64,000 nt of DNA from Nitrosarchaeum sp. (GTDB lineage: Archaea; Thermoproteota; Nitrososphaeria; Nitrososphaerales; Nitrosopumilaceae), in contig NZ_JAVYIM010000008.1 in the NCBI RefSeq assembly GCF_035968265.1, forward strand, positions 1-64,000, read 5' to 3'. Under the pieces are notes generated by a model. That model saw only the letters and a list, made by a program, of their open reading frames with translations. It was not told where the DNA came from and searched no databases. Both the position numbers and the translations under genes were made by a program. The first letter of the stretch is position 1; each line of letters starts with the position of its first letter. Shown here piece after piece: positions 42,667 through 50,547 of the stretch.

Positions 42667-43881
42667 TTGGCTAGAACATCACTACAATGTAGAGAATGCA
42701 AAAAAGAATATGATGCTGCTTTCAAGTATATCTGCGATGATTGTTTTGGACCCCTAGATGTAAAATATAATTTTCCTGCAATTACAAAAAACACATTTAC
42801 AAATCGCGAGCATAACTATTGGAGATATTTTGAATTACTACCAATAGAAAACAAATCTAACATTATTAGTATTGGTGCAGGAATGACACCTCTTATCAAA
42901 GCTGACAATCTTGGAAAAAAATTAGGACTAAACAATCTTTACATTAAAAACGATTCTGTAAATCCAACATTTTCATTTAAAGACAGACCTGCGGGAGTTG
43001 CAATATCAAAAGCAAAGGAGTTAGGACTATCAGCTGTTGGATGTGCATCCACTGGCAATTTAGCATCTGCAACTGCAGCACATGCCGCAAAAGCTGGATT
43101 ACCATGCCATGTATTTGCACCAAGTAACATTGAGATGGCAAAAATTGCACAGGCATTATCTTATGGAGCAAATTACATTGCAGTAGATGGAACATATGAT
43201 GATGCAAATAGAATAGCTGCTCAAATTGGTGACAGCAAAGGAATAGGAATTGTAAACATTAACATGCGTTCTCACTATGTGGAAGGTTCCAAAACACTTG
43301 CATACGAAGTTGCAGAACAACTTGACTGGCAGGTTCCTGATCAACTCATAGTTCCAGTAGGAAGTGGTGCAATGCTAAATGCAATCTGCAAGGGATTTGA
43401 AGAATTACAGACAGTCTCATTGTTAAATAATGTATCAAATATGCACATGATTGCTGCACAACCACATGGATGTGCTCCTATTGTTAATGCATTTAAGAAA
43501 AACAGTAAAGAAGTGATTCCAGTTGAGAATCCTGATACCATTGCAAAGAGTTTGGCAATAGGTGATCCTGGAGATGGCCGATATGTTTTGAAACGATTAG
43601 TACAGTATCATGGATTTGCAGAAGAATGTAACAATAAGGAAATTTTAGATGCAATATTGCTTTTGGCAAGGACCGAAGGAATCTTTACAGAACCTGCAGG
43701 TGGTGTCTCTGTTGCTGTACTTCAAAAAATGATTGAGCAGGGAAAAATCGACAAAAATGATTCTGTAGTGTGTTATGTCACTGGAAATGGATTAAAAGCA
43801 ACTGAGGCAATAATGGAAGTCTTACAAAAACCAAAAGTAATGAAGGCAAACATTGCAGAAATATCGGCGGTAGTAAATTAA
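42667..43881 (+). CDS. thrC: Threonine synthase
   Basis: 404 residues, fold-type II PLP enzyme converting O-phosphohomoserine to threonine. An N-terminal zinc-ribbon-like module (Cys8, Cys11, Cys23, Cys26) precedes the catalytic core, as in the archaeal/plant type. The PLP lysine is Lys105 in NPTFSFKDRPAG. GCASTGNLASATAAHAA binds the cofactor phosphate region, and VPVGSGAMLNA the phosphate of PLP. TTG start with an upstream AAAGGAG. The following gene, a ubiquitin-like/E1 fusion, starts one base after its stop, which suggests a functional link. asd, two steps earlier, is at 6394. Confidence 0.93.
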   Translation: MARTSLQCRECKKEYDAAFKYICDDCFGPLDVKYNFPAITKNTFTNREHNYWRYFELLPIENKSNIISIGAGMTPLIKADNLGKKLGLNNLYIKNDSVNPTFSFKDRPAGVAISKAKELGLSAVGCASTGNLASATAAHAAKAGLPCHVFAPSNIEMAKIAQALSYGANYIAVDGTYDDANRIAAQIGDSKGIGIVNINMRSHYVEGSKTLAYEVAEQLDWQVPDQLIVPVGSGAMLNAICKGFEELQTVSLLNNVSNMHMIAAQPHGCAPIVNAFKKNSKEVIPVENPDTIAKSLAIGDPGDGRYVLKRLVQYHGFAEECNNKEILDAILLLARTEGIFTEPAGGVSVAVLQKMIEQGKIDKNDSVVCYVTGNGLKATEAIMEVLQKPKVMKANIAEISAVVN

Positions 43882-43882
43882 A

Positions 43883-45226
43883 ATGGCAAATATCACATTT
43901 ACAATTCCATCAGTGTTAAATCAAGGCGGTGGAGAGAGAAAGACAGAGATTTTAGCTGATTCTCTTACTGATGCATTTGTAAAGATATCTGAAATTATGG
44001 GTGATGATTTTAAGAGACGAGTTTTGGAAAGTGATGGAACTCCGCGCTCTTTGATTAATATCTACATTAACGGAAAGAATGCAAAATTTTCTGATGGGAT
44101 GAATACTGTTCTAAATAATGGAGATGAGGTGTATATTTTACCTGCAGTGGCTGGTGGTTCTGATGAATTATCTGCAAAAGAGCTGGATAGATTTTCAAGA
44201 CAGGTAATGCTTGAAGAGATTGGTTACACTGGACAGCTGAAATTAAAAAACTCCAAAGTATGTGTTGTAGGTGTAGGTGGATTAGGAAATCCAATCACAT
44301 CAAGACTAGCTGCAATGGGTATTGGTACTTTGAGAATTGTTGATAGAGATGTAATAGAATTATCTAATCTACATCGCCAAACTATGTTTGATGAATCTGA
44401 CGTTGGTCAAGTAAAAGTAGAAGTTGCAGCAAAGAAATTACAGAAATTAAATCCTGACTGTAAGATAGAATATTTGGCAGTCTCAGTAAATGATTACACT
44501 GCACTTGAAGTTGTAGAGGGTTGTGATGTTGTAATTGATGCACTTGATAGTGTTAATGCAAGATATGCTCTAAATAATGCATGTGTAAAATTTGGAATTC
44601 CATTTGTTACTGGTGCAGCAGTAGGAGTATCAGGGCAAGCATTTACAATTTTGCCAAAAGAGTCGGCATGTTACTATTGCATGTTTCCTGAGCTAAACGA
44701 AGATGCAATGCCGACTTGCAGCATTGAGGGAGTTCATCCATCTATACTTTCTATTGTTGGGGGAATCGAAGTATCAGAAGCTGTAAAAATTATTATTGGA
44801 AAAAAACCTAGTCTATCTCAAAGAATTCTTCACATTGATTTAGAGAATCTTGATTTTACAAGTACCAGAACATTTCGAGCTGAAGAATGTCCAATTTGTG
44901 GAACCGGAAAAATTACATCTGTGCCAAAACAAGAATTAATTCTAGAAGAACTATGCGGAAGAAATCGTGGAAAGCGAACTTATTCTATAACTCCTACTGA
45001 TACATTTGATATTGATACTGCTATAGTTTCTAACATTGCAAAAAAACAAGGATTTACAGTAGAAAATCTTGGTGACTTGGGGTTGTCATTGCGGACAAAT
45101 GATCTCTCTGTAAGTTTTATGAAAAAAGGCTCTGCAGTAATTGTTGGCTCAAAAGATGAAGATGATGCTATATCATTATACAAAAGTCTGCTTGGTAAGG
45201 AATTGAGTGCAAAAACTAGCCTATAA
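43883..45226 (+). CDS. Fusion of a ubiquitin-like (MoaD/SAMP) domain and an E1/MoeB-ThiF activating enzyme
   Basis: 447 residues in three parts. Residues 1-92 form a beta-grasp, MoaD/SAMP-like domain that ends in the di-glycine AVAGG (Gly91-Gly92). Residues ~95-355 are an E1-like adenylating domain: FSRQVMLEEIGYTGQ, Rossmann loop VCVVGVGGLGNP, DRDVIELSNLHRQTMF, IDALDSVNARYALN, the TCSIEGVHPS segment with the candidate catalytic Cys, and zinc Cys pairs CYYC and CPIC. A C-terminal domain of about 90 residues is of unknown type. Separate MoaD and MoeB proteins normally adenylate and thiocarboxylate the free C-terminal glycine. Here that glycine is internal, so processing or an altered role is implied. 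Confidence 0.88.
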   Translation: MANITFTIPSVLNQGGGERKTEILADSLTDAFVKISEIMGDDFKRRVLESDGTPRSLINIYINGKNAKFSDGMNTVLNNGDEVYILPAVAGGSDELSAKELDRFSRQVMLEEIGYTGQLKLKNSKVCVVGVGGLGNPITSRLAAMGIGTLRIVDRDVIELSNLHRQTMFDESDVGQVKVEVAAKKLQKLNPDCKIEYLAVSVNDYTALEVVEGCDVVIDALDSVNARYALNNACVKFGIPFVTGAAVGVSGQAFTILPKESACYYCMFPELNEDAMPTCSIEGVHPSILSIVGGIEVSEAVKIIIGKKPSLSQRILHIDLENLDFTSTRTFRAEECPICGTGKITSVPKQELILEELCGRNRGKRTYSITPTDTFDIDTAIVSNIAKKQGFTVENLGDLGLSLRTNDLSVSFMKKGSAVIVGSKDEDDAISLYKSLLGKELSAKTSL

Positions 45227-45429: not shown

Positions 45430-48400
45430 ATGAATAACGAAATAGGACGAAAAATAACTAGTCTTACATTAATGACAATTATGTTAGCCGGTGGTTTGAC
45501 ATTTGCTGCTCCATCTATGATGCCAGTAGCACATGCCGCCAACGCTAACCTATTTGTTTCCGCAGAAAACTCGCAGTTCAATAACTACATGTCAGGACCT
45601 CAAGTAATTGAAGTTGTGATAATAGATTCTGATATCAATGATACTGATGAGGCAAAAGGTGAACCAGACATTACCGTAAACGGCAAGAAACTTAGAATGG
45701 TTCAAGCAGTAGACGGTAACTGGTATGGTTACTTTGCAGATAAGACAATGGCACAAACAGCAGACCAAACCGTTGTGGGTAAGACCACAGGTGAAGGTCT
45801 TGACTTTGGTACATTTTGTAGCTCAGCTACATTATTAGATCCATCAAACTTGAATGTAACCGTCTCCGAGACCGTAGGTATCGCAGTAGGTGCACAAGTG
45901 ACTGGTGGTACACAAGGTACAACATCTCCATTTACAGCATGTACAGGTTTCAATGCAACTGACACTCAAAATGTCATTCGTGAACAAAAGGCAGCTAATG
46001 GATTCCCAACATCAGCAAGAGTTGGGCAAATTGGTATTGATGCCGATGTTTGGCCATTTATACAACTCTATACTCTAAGTGCAGGTGGAAACGTTGTAAT
46101 TCAATATAACAAAGGTGGTGGTGTTCAAACAACAACACTTACTTTTGATACAGTTGACCAATTTTCCAGTGTATCTTTAGATAGAACAGCTTATCCGCGA
46201 ACATCTCAGGTTCATACAACGATTACAGATCTATGGTTAAACGTTGACCCAACTGATGAAGACTCTTGGACATTTGGTACAAACAGTACAAACTCTGAAA
46301 AGGGTACATACTACCAAGTATTCAATGAAAATGGCGATTCAGATGGTGATCAACAAGCACTTGGTGTGATTAACATTGACTCAGTCTTAGGTGCCCTCAT
46401 GTGTGAGGATAACTGTAGATTGTTAGTTAATACTAACACACAAGGTGCTACTAACCCAGTATTAACTCTCCAAGATAACGGTGATAGTGTCTTAAACAAT
46501 ACTAGCGCTGGAATCACAGCAGATGCAAATCTAGCTAGTGAGTTCCATTTGAACAATACACTTGCTCAAGCAGGTGGTCCAGCACACGGATTCTTAGGAG
46601 AAAATACAGTACCAGTAACAATTACTGAACAAGGACCAAACAGCGGTATATTTGGTACATATGATGAATCAGATACCTCTGTTTTGAAAATCACTAGCAA
46701 TGCAGCAAGGGGAACCTCTGCAACTATTGATTACAATGCGTCCCCAGTAACAGTTCTTGTAGGATTTGGCTTTGCAACAGTTGATATACAGCCAACAGAT
46801 GCCGAATGGACCTCTGGTGAAGAGATTCCAGTAGTCATCGTTGACAGTGATGCCAACAAAAACAGTAGATCTGATGAAGACTTAGACTTGTTTAACACAG
46901 ATGTGGCATTGATCCCATCACTTCAAACTGGTGATCCATTCACATTAGGTGAAGCAGGTTTAACCGCTCCAAAAGCTACTTGGTTTGCTTTCACTTCTAT
47001 CAACTCAACAATTGCACCATCTGGTTCTAACGGAACTGAATCAACTATTACAGTTGATAAATTCAGCGAACGAGCAATTATAACGCCAGTTAAAACCAGT
47101 AACCAAGCAAGCGTTACTGCAAGTAACTCTCTTGTAATTGATCTTAGAACAACCGTTGATGAACTTAGAAAGACAATCAGAAATCCAGAAGGAGGTTCAT
47201 TCCATGGTTTCAACTTCCTTAACTTAGATGTTAGAAGCTTGAACACCACAGGTACCTTCGATGTTTATCTATTGAACAGTACTGACAACATCTTAAAAGC
47301 AGATGGTAACCTTACCAGCTCCCAAATTGGTGCTTTGAAAATAGGTAGTGCTGTTGGCTCACAAAGCTTCACATTACTCAATGCAACCGCCCTTAACACT
47401 CAACTATTTGATACAACTAACACATTATCAACTAATAAAGTTGGTTTATTGATAGTACACAGTGTAATAGGTGCTGGAAATGTTATCCCAGGAACTGATG
47501 CAATTGTAGCAGACTTCTTCTCCTTTGGATTCATAAATGATGGATTAGCAGCTGGAGACAGAGTAGCTAATCAGATTATAAGAATTGAAGCAGAAGAATC
47601 TGGTGATAATACATCTACCTTCGAAGGTAGTTTGGAATTTGTCATGATTAATCAGCTAAATATACTTGATCGTACCACTTACACAGGTTTATCTACAATT
47701 GCCGATGATCCAAACTTCATCGTCATTGAAGATCTAACTGATGAAGATTCACCTAGAGTCAACTATAATGACTTGGGTGCAGATGGTGTTACAACTCAAG
47801 TTGCTGATCAACAGGCAGCTCCAAGTCACTCAGGTGTTGTATCTTTGAATGCAGAGTCATACAAGAATGCTGACACAGTTATGATTACACTACAAGACTT
47901 AGATCTTAACGTCGATTCTGACCTAGTTGATATCTATACTACTATTACCGACGGAGGTAGTTTACGTGATGTTGTTGGAAACAACTCTACATCAATAGCA
48001 CTATCTACCGGAGATGATCTTGGTAGATTATTAGATGTCACTTTCGATGATCAAAAATGGACTACACCAACAAACGCTTGTGCGACATCATTGTCAAACG
48101 CAGGTGTAACAGATACAGGATTAGGTGCAACCGGATTTACTCTGATTGAAACTGGACCTGAAACTGGTATATTTACTGGTGATTTCCAAATTCCAGGAGC
48201 ATGGTGCAGAGCAGATGCAACAACATCTGAATCTGTCACAGGTAATGATATTGAAGTCAATTATGTTGACTTTAGAGATGCATCTGGTGAAGTCATTGAA
48301 GTAGGTGATGGTGCAGGCGTTCGCGCTAACACTGGATCCGTCAGTCTCGATCGAACCGTTTACCCAGTACCATTTGGAGTCACAGGTGACTTTGGTACTA

Positions 48401-50547
48401 GTACAAATACAGCCCCAGATGGAAGAGCCTTATTCCCAATCCATCAAACTGGAATGAATACAGCTGGAACAACACGTTCTAGCTCAGGACTTCAATCTGG
48501 TGAGTTTATTGGTAACGGAGATCTAACAATTCACGTCAGAGTTAATGATCCAGACTTTAATACATCTGCAACCGGTGAAGATATTATTGGAACAAACGCT
48601 ACCGGCACAACAACCGTAGTAGGACCTGTTAAGATCTCTGTATTAAGAGGTTCTTCAGCAGTAGTACTTGGTTATGCTGGTGGTCCAGATGCATTAGGTG
48701 GTACAATTGATACCAATAATGCTCTGCTCAATAGTACCAGACAATTTGGTCCAATGGGCGAAATTGCACCAGATGCAGGAATATTTGAATCTGATATAAT
48801 CATTAGATATACCGATGGTCCAGCAAGTACTGCTTGTCCAAGCACAACATCTGCATGGACAAACATCCTTGATGATGCTGGTACAACAGAAACAGACAGA
48901 TTTGATATTGCCGCAACCAGTGGTGATTACTGTATCTTACAAGGAGATATTCTCCAAGTAGAGTACACTGATCCAGCTGATGCATCAGGTGATGTCAACA
49001 CTGTAACTGATTCTGCTACCTTTGACCTAAGAAACGGTGTATTGCAATCTGACAAATCAGTGTATATTATTGGATCCGACATGATCTTGACCCTCATTGA
49101 GCCAGACTTCGATTTGGACAATGACCAGGCTGAGACATATGACTTGGACTTAATTGAATGGGACTCTGATGCCGCAACCGTCACCATGGGTGACGCTGAT
49201 GGCCAAGGAGCCAACTTCGACCCAGAACCATCTAACTTTAGAGAAACAGGTGACAGCACTGGAATCTTCCAGATTGTCGTCGAAATTCCTTCAGCATTAG
49301 ATGGTGATAACCTAGAAAGAGGAGAAGAAATTGTCCTCGAGTACAGCGATTGGGGTCCATCCGGATCTGACTTTGTAGGTGACGAAGATGAAGATGTCAA
49401 CTTGACACTCTTTACTTCAAACTTCGGAGCAACTGTAGAGCTTGACCAAAAAGTTTACACATGGACTGATAAAGTATACATTACTATCGTAGCCCCAGAT
49501 CACAACTTTGACAGCAACCTAGTCGATGAGATTGGTGACTCTGATTCTGACCCAATAAAGGTCTCAACTAGAGGTAACAAACTCAACAACTACAAACTAG
49601 TCGAAACTGGTACTGACACAGGCATTTTCACTGGTGAGGTAATTCTTACCGGCTTTACACATAATGCTGATGGCGATACCACAACTGGTACTAACGGTAA
49701 TGATGTAACAACCACTTCTCCTTCTGGCAGTGGTCCAACAGATGGACTATTGTCAGCTGATGATGATGACGGCATAACTGTCTCCTTTGAATTCTCAGAG
49801 GATGAAACTATTGTCGGTTCAGCATTAATCAGATGGAATATTGGTGAGGTTCAGTGGCTTGAAGCAAGCTACCCAGCAAGCGGTACAGGTGTTGTAAGAG
49901 TAATTGATCCAGATATGAACTTAAACCCAGAAGCAGTTGATAATTTCAACGCTGATGTGTGGTCTGACTCCGATGCCGGAGGTATTGATCTAACTGTAAC
50001 TGAGACTAATGAGGCAACCGGAATATTCGAAGGCACTGTGTTCTTCACAACTGTCGACGAATCATCTGGTCACAGACTCAGAGTCGCAGAAGGTGACACT
50101 GTCACTGCAGAGTATTCAGACAATACATTACCTAATCCATACACAACAGCAGATGAACTTGATATTACTGCCACTTCGCTAATCGGTACGGTTGTACCAC
50201 CTCTTGAGAGAGCACCAGCTGCTAACTTGAGAGTTGTTGACGCATTCGGTAACAGCTTAAGCACTGTTAACGTTGATCAACAGGTGCAAATAACTGCCGA
50301 CCTAGCAAATGGTCAGGATAGAGAGCAAGCATTTGCCTACTTGGTACAGATTCAGGATGGTAACGGTGTTACAGTCTCACTAGCATGGATTACAGGTTCA
50401 TTATCCGCTGGTCAATCATTCAGCCCTGCTTTATCATGGATCCCAACTGACGCTGGCACTTATACTGCCACTGCATTTGTCTGGGAATCTGTTGATAATC
50501 CAACGGCATTATCACCACCAGTAACTACGACAATAATCGTACAGTAA
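45430..50547 (+). CDS. Major S-layer protein (Nitrosopumilus type)
   Basis: 1705 residues. A signal peptide (SLTLMTIMLAGGLTFAAPSM, cleavage near AHAAN) is followed by a Thr/Ser/Asp/Asn-rich, very acidic, lysine-poor protein. At least six Ig-like units recur, each with VxLDxxxY, an Asp-rich D-x-D-x-N loop and the closing ETGxxTGIF motif (SGIFGTYDE, TGIFTGDFQ, TGIFQIVVE, TGIFTGEVI, TGIFEGTVF). Length, N-terminus and repeats agree with the known N. maritimus S-layer protein, which builds a hexagonal lattice thought to attract ammonium. No C-terminal membrane anchor is present. Codon use is richer in G+C than the neighbours, as expected for a highly expressed gene. A poly-T terminator follows. 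Confidence 0.93.
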   Translation: MNNEIGRKITSLTLMTIMLAGGLTFAAPSMMPVAHAANANLFVSAENSQFNNYMSGPQVIEVVIIDSDINDTDEAKGEPDITVNGKKLRMVQAVDGNWYGYFADKTMAQTADQTVVGKTTGEGLDFGTFCSSATLLDPSNLNVTVSETVGIAVGAQVTGGTQGTTSPFTACTGFNATDTQNVIREQKAANGFPTSARVGQIGIDADVWPFIQLYTLSAGGNVVIQYNKGGGVQTTTLTFDTVDQFSSVSLDRTAYPRTSQVHTTITDLWLNVDPTDEDSWTFGTNSTNSEKGTYYQVFNENGDSDGDQQALGVINIDSVLGALMCEDNCRLLVNTNTQGATNPVLTLQDNGDSVLNNTSAGITADANLASEFHLNNTLAQAGGPAHGFLGENTVPVTITEQGPNSGIFGTYDESDTSVLKITSNAARGTSATIDYNASPVTVLVGFGFATVDIQPTDAEWTSGEEIPVVIVDSDANKNSRSDEDLDLFNTDVALIPSLQTGDPFTLGEAGLTAPKATWFAFTSINSTIAPSGSNGTESTITVDKFSERAIITPVKTSNQASVTASNSLVIDLRTTVDELRKTIRNPEGGSFHGFNFLNLDVRSLNTTGTFDVYLLNSTDNILKADGNLTSSQIGALKIGSAVGSQSFTLLNATALNTQLFDTTNTLSTNKVGLLIVHSVIGAGNVIPGTDAIVADFFSFGFINDGLAAGDRVANQIIRIEAEESGDNTSTFEGSLEFVMINQLNILDRTTYTGLSTIADDPNFIVIEDLTDEDSPRVNYNDLGADGVTTQVADQQAAPSHSGVVSLNAESYKNADTVMITLQDLDLNVDSDLVDIYTTITDGGSLRDVVGNNSTSIALSTGDDLGRLLDVTFDDQKWTTPTNACATSLSNAGVTDTGLGATGFTLIETGPETGIFTGDFQIPGAWCRADATTSESVTGNDIEVNYVDFRDASGEVIEVGDGAGVRANTGSVSLDRTVYPVPFGVTGDFGTSTNTAPDGRALFPIHQTGMNTAGTTRSSSGLQSGEFIGNGDLTIHVRVNDPDFNTSATGEDIIGTNATGTTTVVGPVKISVLRGSSAVVLGYAGGPDALGGTIDTNNALLNSTRQFGPMGEIAPDAGIFESDIIIRYTDGPASTACPSTTSAWTNILDDAGTTETDRFDIAATSGDYCILQGDILQVEYTDPADASGDVNTVTDSATFDLRNGVLQSDKSVYIIGSDMILTLIEPDFDLDNDQAETYDLDLIEWDSDAATVTMGDADGQGANFDPEPSNFRETGDSTGIFQIVVEIPSALDGDNLERGEEIVLEYSDWGPSGSDFVGDEDEDVNLTLFTSNFGATVELDQKVYTWTDKVYITIVAPDHNFDSNLVDEIGDSDSDPIKVSTRGNKLNNYKLVETGTDTGIFTGEVILTGFTHNADGDTTTGTNGNDVTTTSPSGSGPTDGLLSADDDDGITVSFEFSEDETIVGSALIRWNIGEVQWLEASYPASGTGVVRVIDPDMNLNPEAVDNFNADVWSDSDAGGIDLTVTETNEATGIFEGTVFFTTVDESSGHRLRVAEGDTVTAEYSDNTLPNPYTTADELDITATSLIGTVVPPLERAPAANLRVVDAFGNSLSTVNVDQQVQITADLANGQDREQAFAYLVQIQDGNGVTVSLAWITGSLSAGQSFSPALSWIPTDAGTYTATAFVWESVDNPTALSPPVTTTIIVQ

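Follow-up and report, generated by a model that had tools for sequence, protein, structure and literature searches.

A ubiquitin-like domain fused to its own E1 enzyme in ammonia-oxidising archaea: a probable precursor of a CysO-like sulfur carrier

The substrate that an E1 enzyme adenylates is a free C-terminal carboxylate. In the DNA analysed here, a stretch of 64,000 nucleotides from Nitrosarchaeum sp. (contig NZ_JAVYIM010000008.1, positions 1 to 64,000; hereafter the window), a single gene encodes a ubiquitin-like (Ubl) domain whose Gly-Gly lies inside the chain and is followed by the E1 enzyme itself. The locus thus raises the question whether the Ubl domain is released to serve as a carrier or modifier, and for which pathway, or whether it is a fixed part of the enzyme. 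The features concerned are the following.

42667..43881, + strand: PLP-dependent enzyme, a threonine-synthase paralogue of 404 aa, ending 1 nt before the fusion gene
43883..45226, + strand: whole fusion gene, Ubl plus E1 plus TBP-like domain, 447 aa
43883..44158, + strand: CysO/MoaD-like ubiquitin-fold domain, residues 1-92 (Pfam ThiS; CysO)
44153..44158, + strand: Gly91-Gly92, predicted cleavage between Gly92 and Ser93 (Gly-Gly invariance; homologous C-terminus in split relatives)
44159..44191, + strand: linker, residues 93-103, of low conservation and varying length
44192..44893, + strand: ThiF/MoeB-type E1 adenylation domain, residues 104-337 (Pfam ThiF)
44717..44719, + strand: Cys279 of PTCSIEG, the ThiF/MoeB cysteine position (alignment; invariant)
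44930..45193, + strand: C-terminal TBP-like domain with a conserved EELCGR (Cys358) (AF2 model, structure matches, alignment)

A sequence-only reading of the window had placed a fusion ORF at 43883-45226, with Gly-Gly at residues 91-92 and a Ubl module running on into a MoeB/ThiF-type E1. The coordinates and the Gly-Gly (codons 44153-44158), followed by Ser93, are correct, and the continuity is confirmed by Pfam, with ThiS matching residues 52-92 (9.5e-8) and ThiF matching residues 104-337 (5e-73). The label given to the first module, SAMP/MoaD-like, was right as to the type of Ubl, but CysO-like is the sharper description, since MoaE is absent and a PLP-enzyme gene always lies upstream. Mycobacterium tuberculosis CysO (3dwg_C) aligns with residues 3-92 (phmmer, 5.5e-11), is the closest Ubl of known structure, and ends in ILPAVAGG exactly as does the Ubl domain of the fusion. 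The remaining part had been called an unfamiliar domain of 90 residues, a description that has to be abandoned because the NCBIfam MoeB/ThiF-family model NF009123 covers residues 102-438, C-terminal domain included, because the AF2 model of this domain (pLDDT 81) matches TATA-binding proteins with Z 8.6, nearly all of the best 33 structure matches being TBP chains, and because a Ubl-E1-TBP architecture of Thaumarchaeota was described in 2010 (PMC2948915). The TBP-like domain also matches residues 85-165 of PDB 1v8c_A, the C-terminal part of a MoaD-related protein of Thermus (Z 6.1), and a solved structure of a Ubl with a following TBP-like fold may therefore already exist in that entry. For the whole fusion, AF2 produced a model of moderate quality (17 sequences, pLDDT 75), with pLDDT below 50 for residues 88-113; it offers no picture of the tail within the active site. 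Immediately after the fusion gene, the window encodes a repetitive protein of 1705 aa with a signal-like N-terminus (45430-50547).

PF00899 matches the genome only once, at the ThiF domain of the fusion. In an alignment of this domain with MoeB and ThiF of E. coli, Cys279 falls on the cysteines of MoeB ...LTCVEAG... and ThiF ...RNCRTAG..., and it is invariant among the fused orthologues. Invariant in the family alignment are moreover R106, R165, K178, D222 and the CxxC pairs C263/C266 and C336/C339, which, on the MoeB/ThiF alignment, we take to be the MoeB catalytic and zinc residues. Judged from its residues, the E1 domain is catalytically intact, and those predicted to be needed for carrier adenylation are present, the catalytic and zinc positions of the ThiF domain being invariant. 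The enzyme has no rhodanese domain, the TBP-like domain standing in that place instead, and it matches NF047750 with a score under the cut-off of that model.

The sequence-only reading had proposed an alignment of homologues as a check on the invariance of the Gly-Gly, and invariant it is: Gly91-Gly92 is kept in 28/28 fused orthologues from relatives, and in 80/80 named loci from Nitrosarchaeum, Nitrosopumilus, Nitrosotenuis, Nitrosotalea, Nitrosopelagicus and others, which were retrieved via peptide patterns that do not contain the Gly-Gly and which overlap the 28 orthologues, the genomes being partly shared. Among the 28, conservation is 0.98 for residues 85-92 versus 0.68 for residues 93-99 of the linker, and the linker extends to about 25-30 residues in more distant members (G053, G057). 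Nine genomes from other, basal families of the order encode the Ubl as an ORF of its own, which ends exactly in Gly-Gly-stop; the same PLP-enzyme gene immediately precedes it, and in most cases the E1 gene immediately follows. Because these stand-alone homologues end at the aligned position, the internal Gly-Gly corresponds to the old C-terminus, and this alignment together with the invariance shows that it is not there by chance. All fused forms make up one clade in the E1 tree (support 1.0); from this clade and the Gly-Gly-stop ends of the split relatives it follows that the fusion arose once and was joined behind the Gly-Gly.

One genome (G037), in which the Ubl ends in AVAGGNSKGYGYG-stop and the E1 is in another frame, was considered as an ancestral intermediate and rejected, as the E1 tree puts it inside the fused clade; on that placement the fused gene was either broken later or carries a frameshift signal or a sequencing error. 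The Ubl ORF at this locus (L054) ends in AVAGG followed by NSKGYGYG and overlaps the E1 ORF of the other frame. An N-to-O acyl shift at Ser93, by which the protein would cleave itself, is disfavoured as well, the residue after the Gly-Gly being also Ala, Gln, Glu or Leu among the homologues.

The strongest clue to function is the PLP-enzyme gene upstream, which the sequence-only reading had missed, as it had the published reports of the fusion. In 78/78 scored loci this gene directly precedes the fusion gene, the gap ranging from -1 to 10 nt. Its product matches Pfam PALP (1.9e-75) and NCBIfam thrC models, and its nearest solved structures are threonine synthases. However, an ordinary threonine synthase was rejected as its identity on account of altered loops and a separate ThrC in the genome. 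All Ubl-linked PLP enzymes (38/38) carry STGNL and N[IV][NT]xR loops, and also NP[TS][FY]SFKDRPA with the exception of one divergent sequence (L023). These loops differ from those of Aquifex ThrC and of the separate threonine synthase (L091), which has the canonical STGNT and NSVNPFR and is kept where the PLP/E1 pair is missing; none of the 38 Ubl-linked enzymes shows the canonical STGNT and NSVNP[YF]R, whereas the group of the separate enzyme has both. In threonine synthases, the loop at the N[IV][NT]xR position binds the substrate phosphate. The adjoining enzyme is of threonine-synthase lineage, and a CysK/CysM-type synthase was not found beside the Ubl. Other candidate cysteine synthases occur elsewhere in the genome; one locus (L100, G000:C5:9870-10736) encodes a PLP enzyme of 521 aa that is of cysteine-synthase type and has, judged by eye, a rhodanese-like C-terminal part (CMAGNTSL), possibly a cysteine synthase fused to a sulfurtransferase.

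Eight genomes of the family (G001, G002, G015, G024, G028, G029, G030, G036) have neither a full E1 domain nor an orthologue of the PLP enzyme; several of them are 97-99% complete, and they are scattered over a rough tree. As the two genes are adjacent, their joint loss may represent single deletions. These pair-less members are natural knock-outs of the system. In two further genomes (G003:C22, G016:C38) the apparent absence of the fusion is an assembly gap, as the contig ends within the PLP-enzyme gene. PF01053 was not used for a metabolic inference, because its matches in the family genomes are weak and probably belong to other PLP folds.

Searched with a profile of ten diverse Ubls, the genome shows two Ubls of the ThiS/MoaD type, both with an internal Gly-Gly, and no third or free one. 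The second is fused to a KEOPS subunit:

L053:1450-2220 = G000:C4:44163-44933: Cgi121-Ubl fusion with an internal IHGG-Ser

This Ubl keeps His-Gly-Gly in 29/29 genomes, eight of which lack a full E1 domain, and the split form of the Cgi121-linked Ubl ends in HGG-stop in basal genomes. Since the Gly-Gly is retained there in E1-less genomes, conservation by itself was rejected as proof of release, and by this sequence control the Gly-Gly of a fused Ubl can persist for a reason other than activation by an E1, which lowers the confidence in release. The Cgi121-Ubl fusion of Thaumarchaeota (PMC2948915) resembles the gene in the window in its N-terminal Ubl, its internal Gly-Gly and the Gly-Gly-stop of its split form in basal relatives, and differs in having a KEOPS subunit as partner and in keeping the Gly-Gly even where no E1 is encoded.

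Because the genome holds only two such Ubls, both with an internal Gly-Gly, and a single intact E1, cleavage would be needed to provide this E1 with a substrate of this type. The survey for JAMM-type proteases that the sequence-only reading had suggested turned up two in the genome. In one of these (L042, G000:C4:162674) the HSHP-x7-S-x2-D motif is intact, and all fused genomes examined, even the reduced G021 and G038, encode an orthologue of it. As candidates for a peptidase of the Mec+ type, the JAMMs show no linkage to the operon. JAMMs were found also in genomes without the fusion, and for that reason no JAMM is tied to it. Two genomes (G040, G044; loci L068, L070; same order) have a bacterial-type operon in the order CysM-like enzyme, JAMM, Ubl and rhodanese-type E1. 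In G040, the JAMM gene is immediately followed by an independent Ubl-E1-rhodanese fusion with VAGG and then Ser, while the Ubl of G044 carries a tail behind its Gly-Gly; by their gene order, these operons come closest to linking a JAMM genetically with an internal Gly-Gly.

Cleavage of such fusions has precedents. MoaX is cut between Gly82 and Ser83, Gly81 being required for the cutting (PMC4326299); the JAMM protease DR0402 cuts the MoaD-MoaE fusion DR2607, leaving a C-terminal Gly, and linear SAMP1 fusions are cut by HvJAMM1 (PMC8832034). MoaX and DR2607 share with the present gene an N-terminal Ubl and an internal Gly-Gly, followed by Ser in MoaX, and for both of them cleavage behind the second Gly is established, with a JAMM as the protease in Deinococcus. 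They differ in that their partner is MoaE instead of an E1; the role here is not in molybdopterin synthesis. The precedent for the pathway is the thiocarboxylate-dependent cysteine synthesis by CysO, CysM and Mec+ in M. tuberculosis (PMC3227635). With the CysO-CysM-MoeZ-Mec+ system the archaeal locus shares a CysO-like Ubl ending in ILPAVAGG, an E1, a PLP synthase encoded beside the Ubl and a JAMM in the genome; in contrast, the Ubl is here fused to the E1 with its Gly-Gly internal, the E1 has a TBP-like domain in place of a rhodanese, the PLP enzyme is of threonine-synthase lineage, and the JAMM lies outside the operon.

The reading that we favour, and regard as probable though well short of certain, is that the fusion is a precursor that is cut at Gly92 and feeds a CysO-like, thiocarboxylate-dependent synthesis of a sulfur amino acid. 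The fusion gene would encode the precursor, and a protease, most likely the JAMM conserved in all fused genomes examined, would cut after Gly92 and thereby set free equal amounts of a CysO-like sulfur carrier and of its E1. Gly92 would then be adenylated by this E1, a sulfur donor would make the thiocarboxylate, and the adjacent PLP enzyme, acting probably on O-phosphoserine or O-phosphohomoserine, would take the carrier sulfur to form cysteine or homocysteine; this JAMM may also release the amino acid from the carrier, the task of Mec+ in M. tuberculosis. The indication for a sulfur amino acid comes from the presence of a dedicated, altered PLP enzyme beside a CysO-like carrier. Against this reading count the Gly-Gly that the Cgi121-fused Ubl keeps where no E1 is encoded, the occurrence of JAMMs in fusion-less genomes, the lack of a rhodanese domain in the E1, the threonine-synthase rather than CysM lineage of the PLP enzyme, the other cysteine synthase candidates, and the chance that single deletions removed the two neighbouring genes. 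A literature search for cysteine or homocysteine pathways of ammonia-oxidising archaea returned nothing specific.

The sequence-only reading had offered protease release and a module that never leaves as alternatives, and release is much better supported, by the invariant Gly-Gly, split homologues ending in Gly-Gly, the absence of another Ubl, the intact E1, two JAMMs and the MoaD-MoaE precedent. The equal yield of modifier and activator that the same reading had expected from release would be a fair consequence. A Ubl that stays on the E1 as a regulatory or docking module, its Gly-Gly kept because the tail lies near or in the active site, is unlikely in our judgement. The IHGG retained by the Cgi121-fused Ubl in genomes without a full E1 domain speaks for it, as do some bacterial ThiF proteins whose fused Ubl-like domain is thought to be unlike ThiS (PMC1779556). 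Yet it would leave a catalytically complete E1 without any free Ubl of this type in the genome, a separate ThiS beside the fusion is absent, unlike in the bacterial case, and the linker varies in length and sequence and is modelled at low confidence, consistent with disorder. If the Ubl is released, it may act mainly as a SAMP-like protein modifier with the PLP enzyme as user or target. Archaeal Ubls often serve both jobs, the rhodanese-less E1 resembles Haloferax UbaA (the NF047750 match below cut-off), and JAMMs are encoded; however, the one-to-one linkage with the PLP enzyme and the fact that several relatives lack both suggest metabolism rather than regulation, and we consider a mainly modifying role quite unlikely.

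Two further fates of the sulfur have to be weighed. Supply for tRNA thiolation or thiamine would suit an E1 that is the only one of its genome, and archaeal Ubls have been implicated in tRNA thiolation (PMC2948915). At least five relatives, 98-99% complete, nevertheless manage without the E1 and the PLP gene, and the adjacency of the PLP enzyme would be left without explanation, which makes this supply role distinctly improbable. Molybdenum cofactor synthesis is what the Pfam and NCBIfam domain names suggest and what the label MoaD-MoeB implies where the 2024 fusion survey lists the protein (PMC11237513). A search for MoaE found it in 0/37 genomes of the family, but in 11/14 control genomes as well as in basal relatives; the cofactor role was rejected on this ground, the MoaD label being strongly disfavoured, and with CysO as the closest Ubl of known structure it is hardly credible.

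The fusion itself is already known (2010, 2024), as are precedents for processing at an internal Gly-Gly. The sections of PMC2948915 and PMC11237513 that deal with the fusion, under the names Ubl-E1-TBP and MoaD-MoeB, describe the same protein family as the gene in the window and record it in 61/98 assemblies and in NC10 and Rokubacteria; in those sections, no PLP partner, Gly-Gly analysis, processing argument or function beyond MoaD/MoeB is given for it. Ubl-ThiF fusions of Campylobacter and other bacteria (PMC1779556) likewise have a Ubl at the N-terminus of a ThiF-type E1, but theirs is described as a distinct Ubl family, encoded beside a separate ThiS gene. New are the dedicated PLP partner with its altered active-site loops, the joint absence of the pair from some relatives, the single origin of the fusion behind the Gly-Gly, the lack of MoaE and of further Ubls, and the finding that the second Ubl is fused in a parallel way.

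More tentatively, as a generalisation that we hold to be possible but rather doubtful, ammonia-oxidising archaea may produce every ThiS/MoaD-type Ubl fused to the N-terminus of a partner, E1 or Cgi121, and these fusions would be matured by a shared JAMM in parallel to the ubiquitin-fusion precursors of eukaryotes, with the E1-fused Ubl feeding a new, threonine-synthase-derived and thiocarboxylate-dependent cysteine or homocysteine synthase. In the sea, few microbes are more abundant than ammonia-oxidising archaea. If the precursor reading is true, they would possess an unrecognised route of sulfur into an amino acid, and the fusion would show that prokaryotes, too, use ubiquitin-fusion precursors, here with activator and carrier produced one to one.
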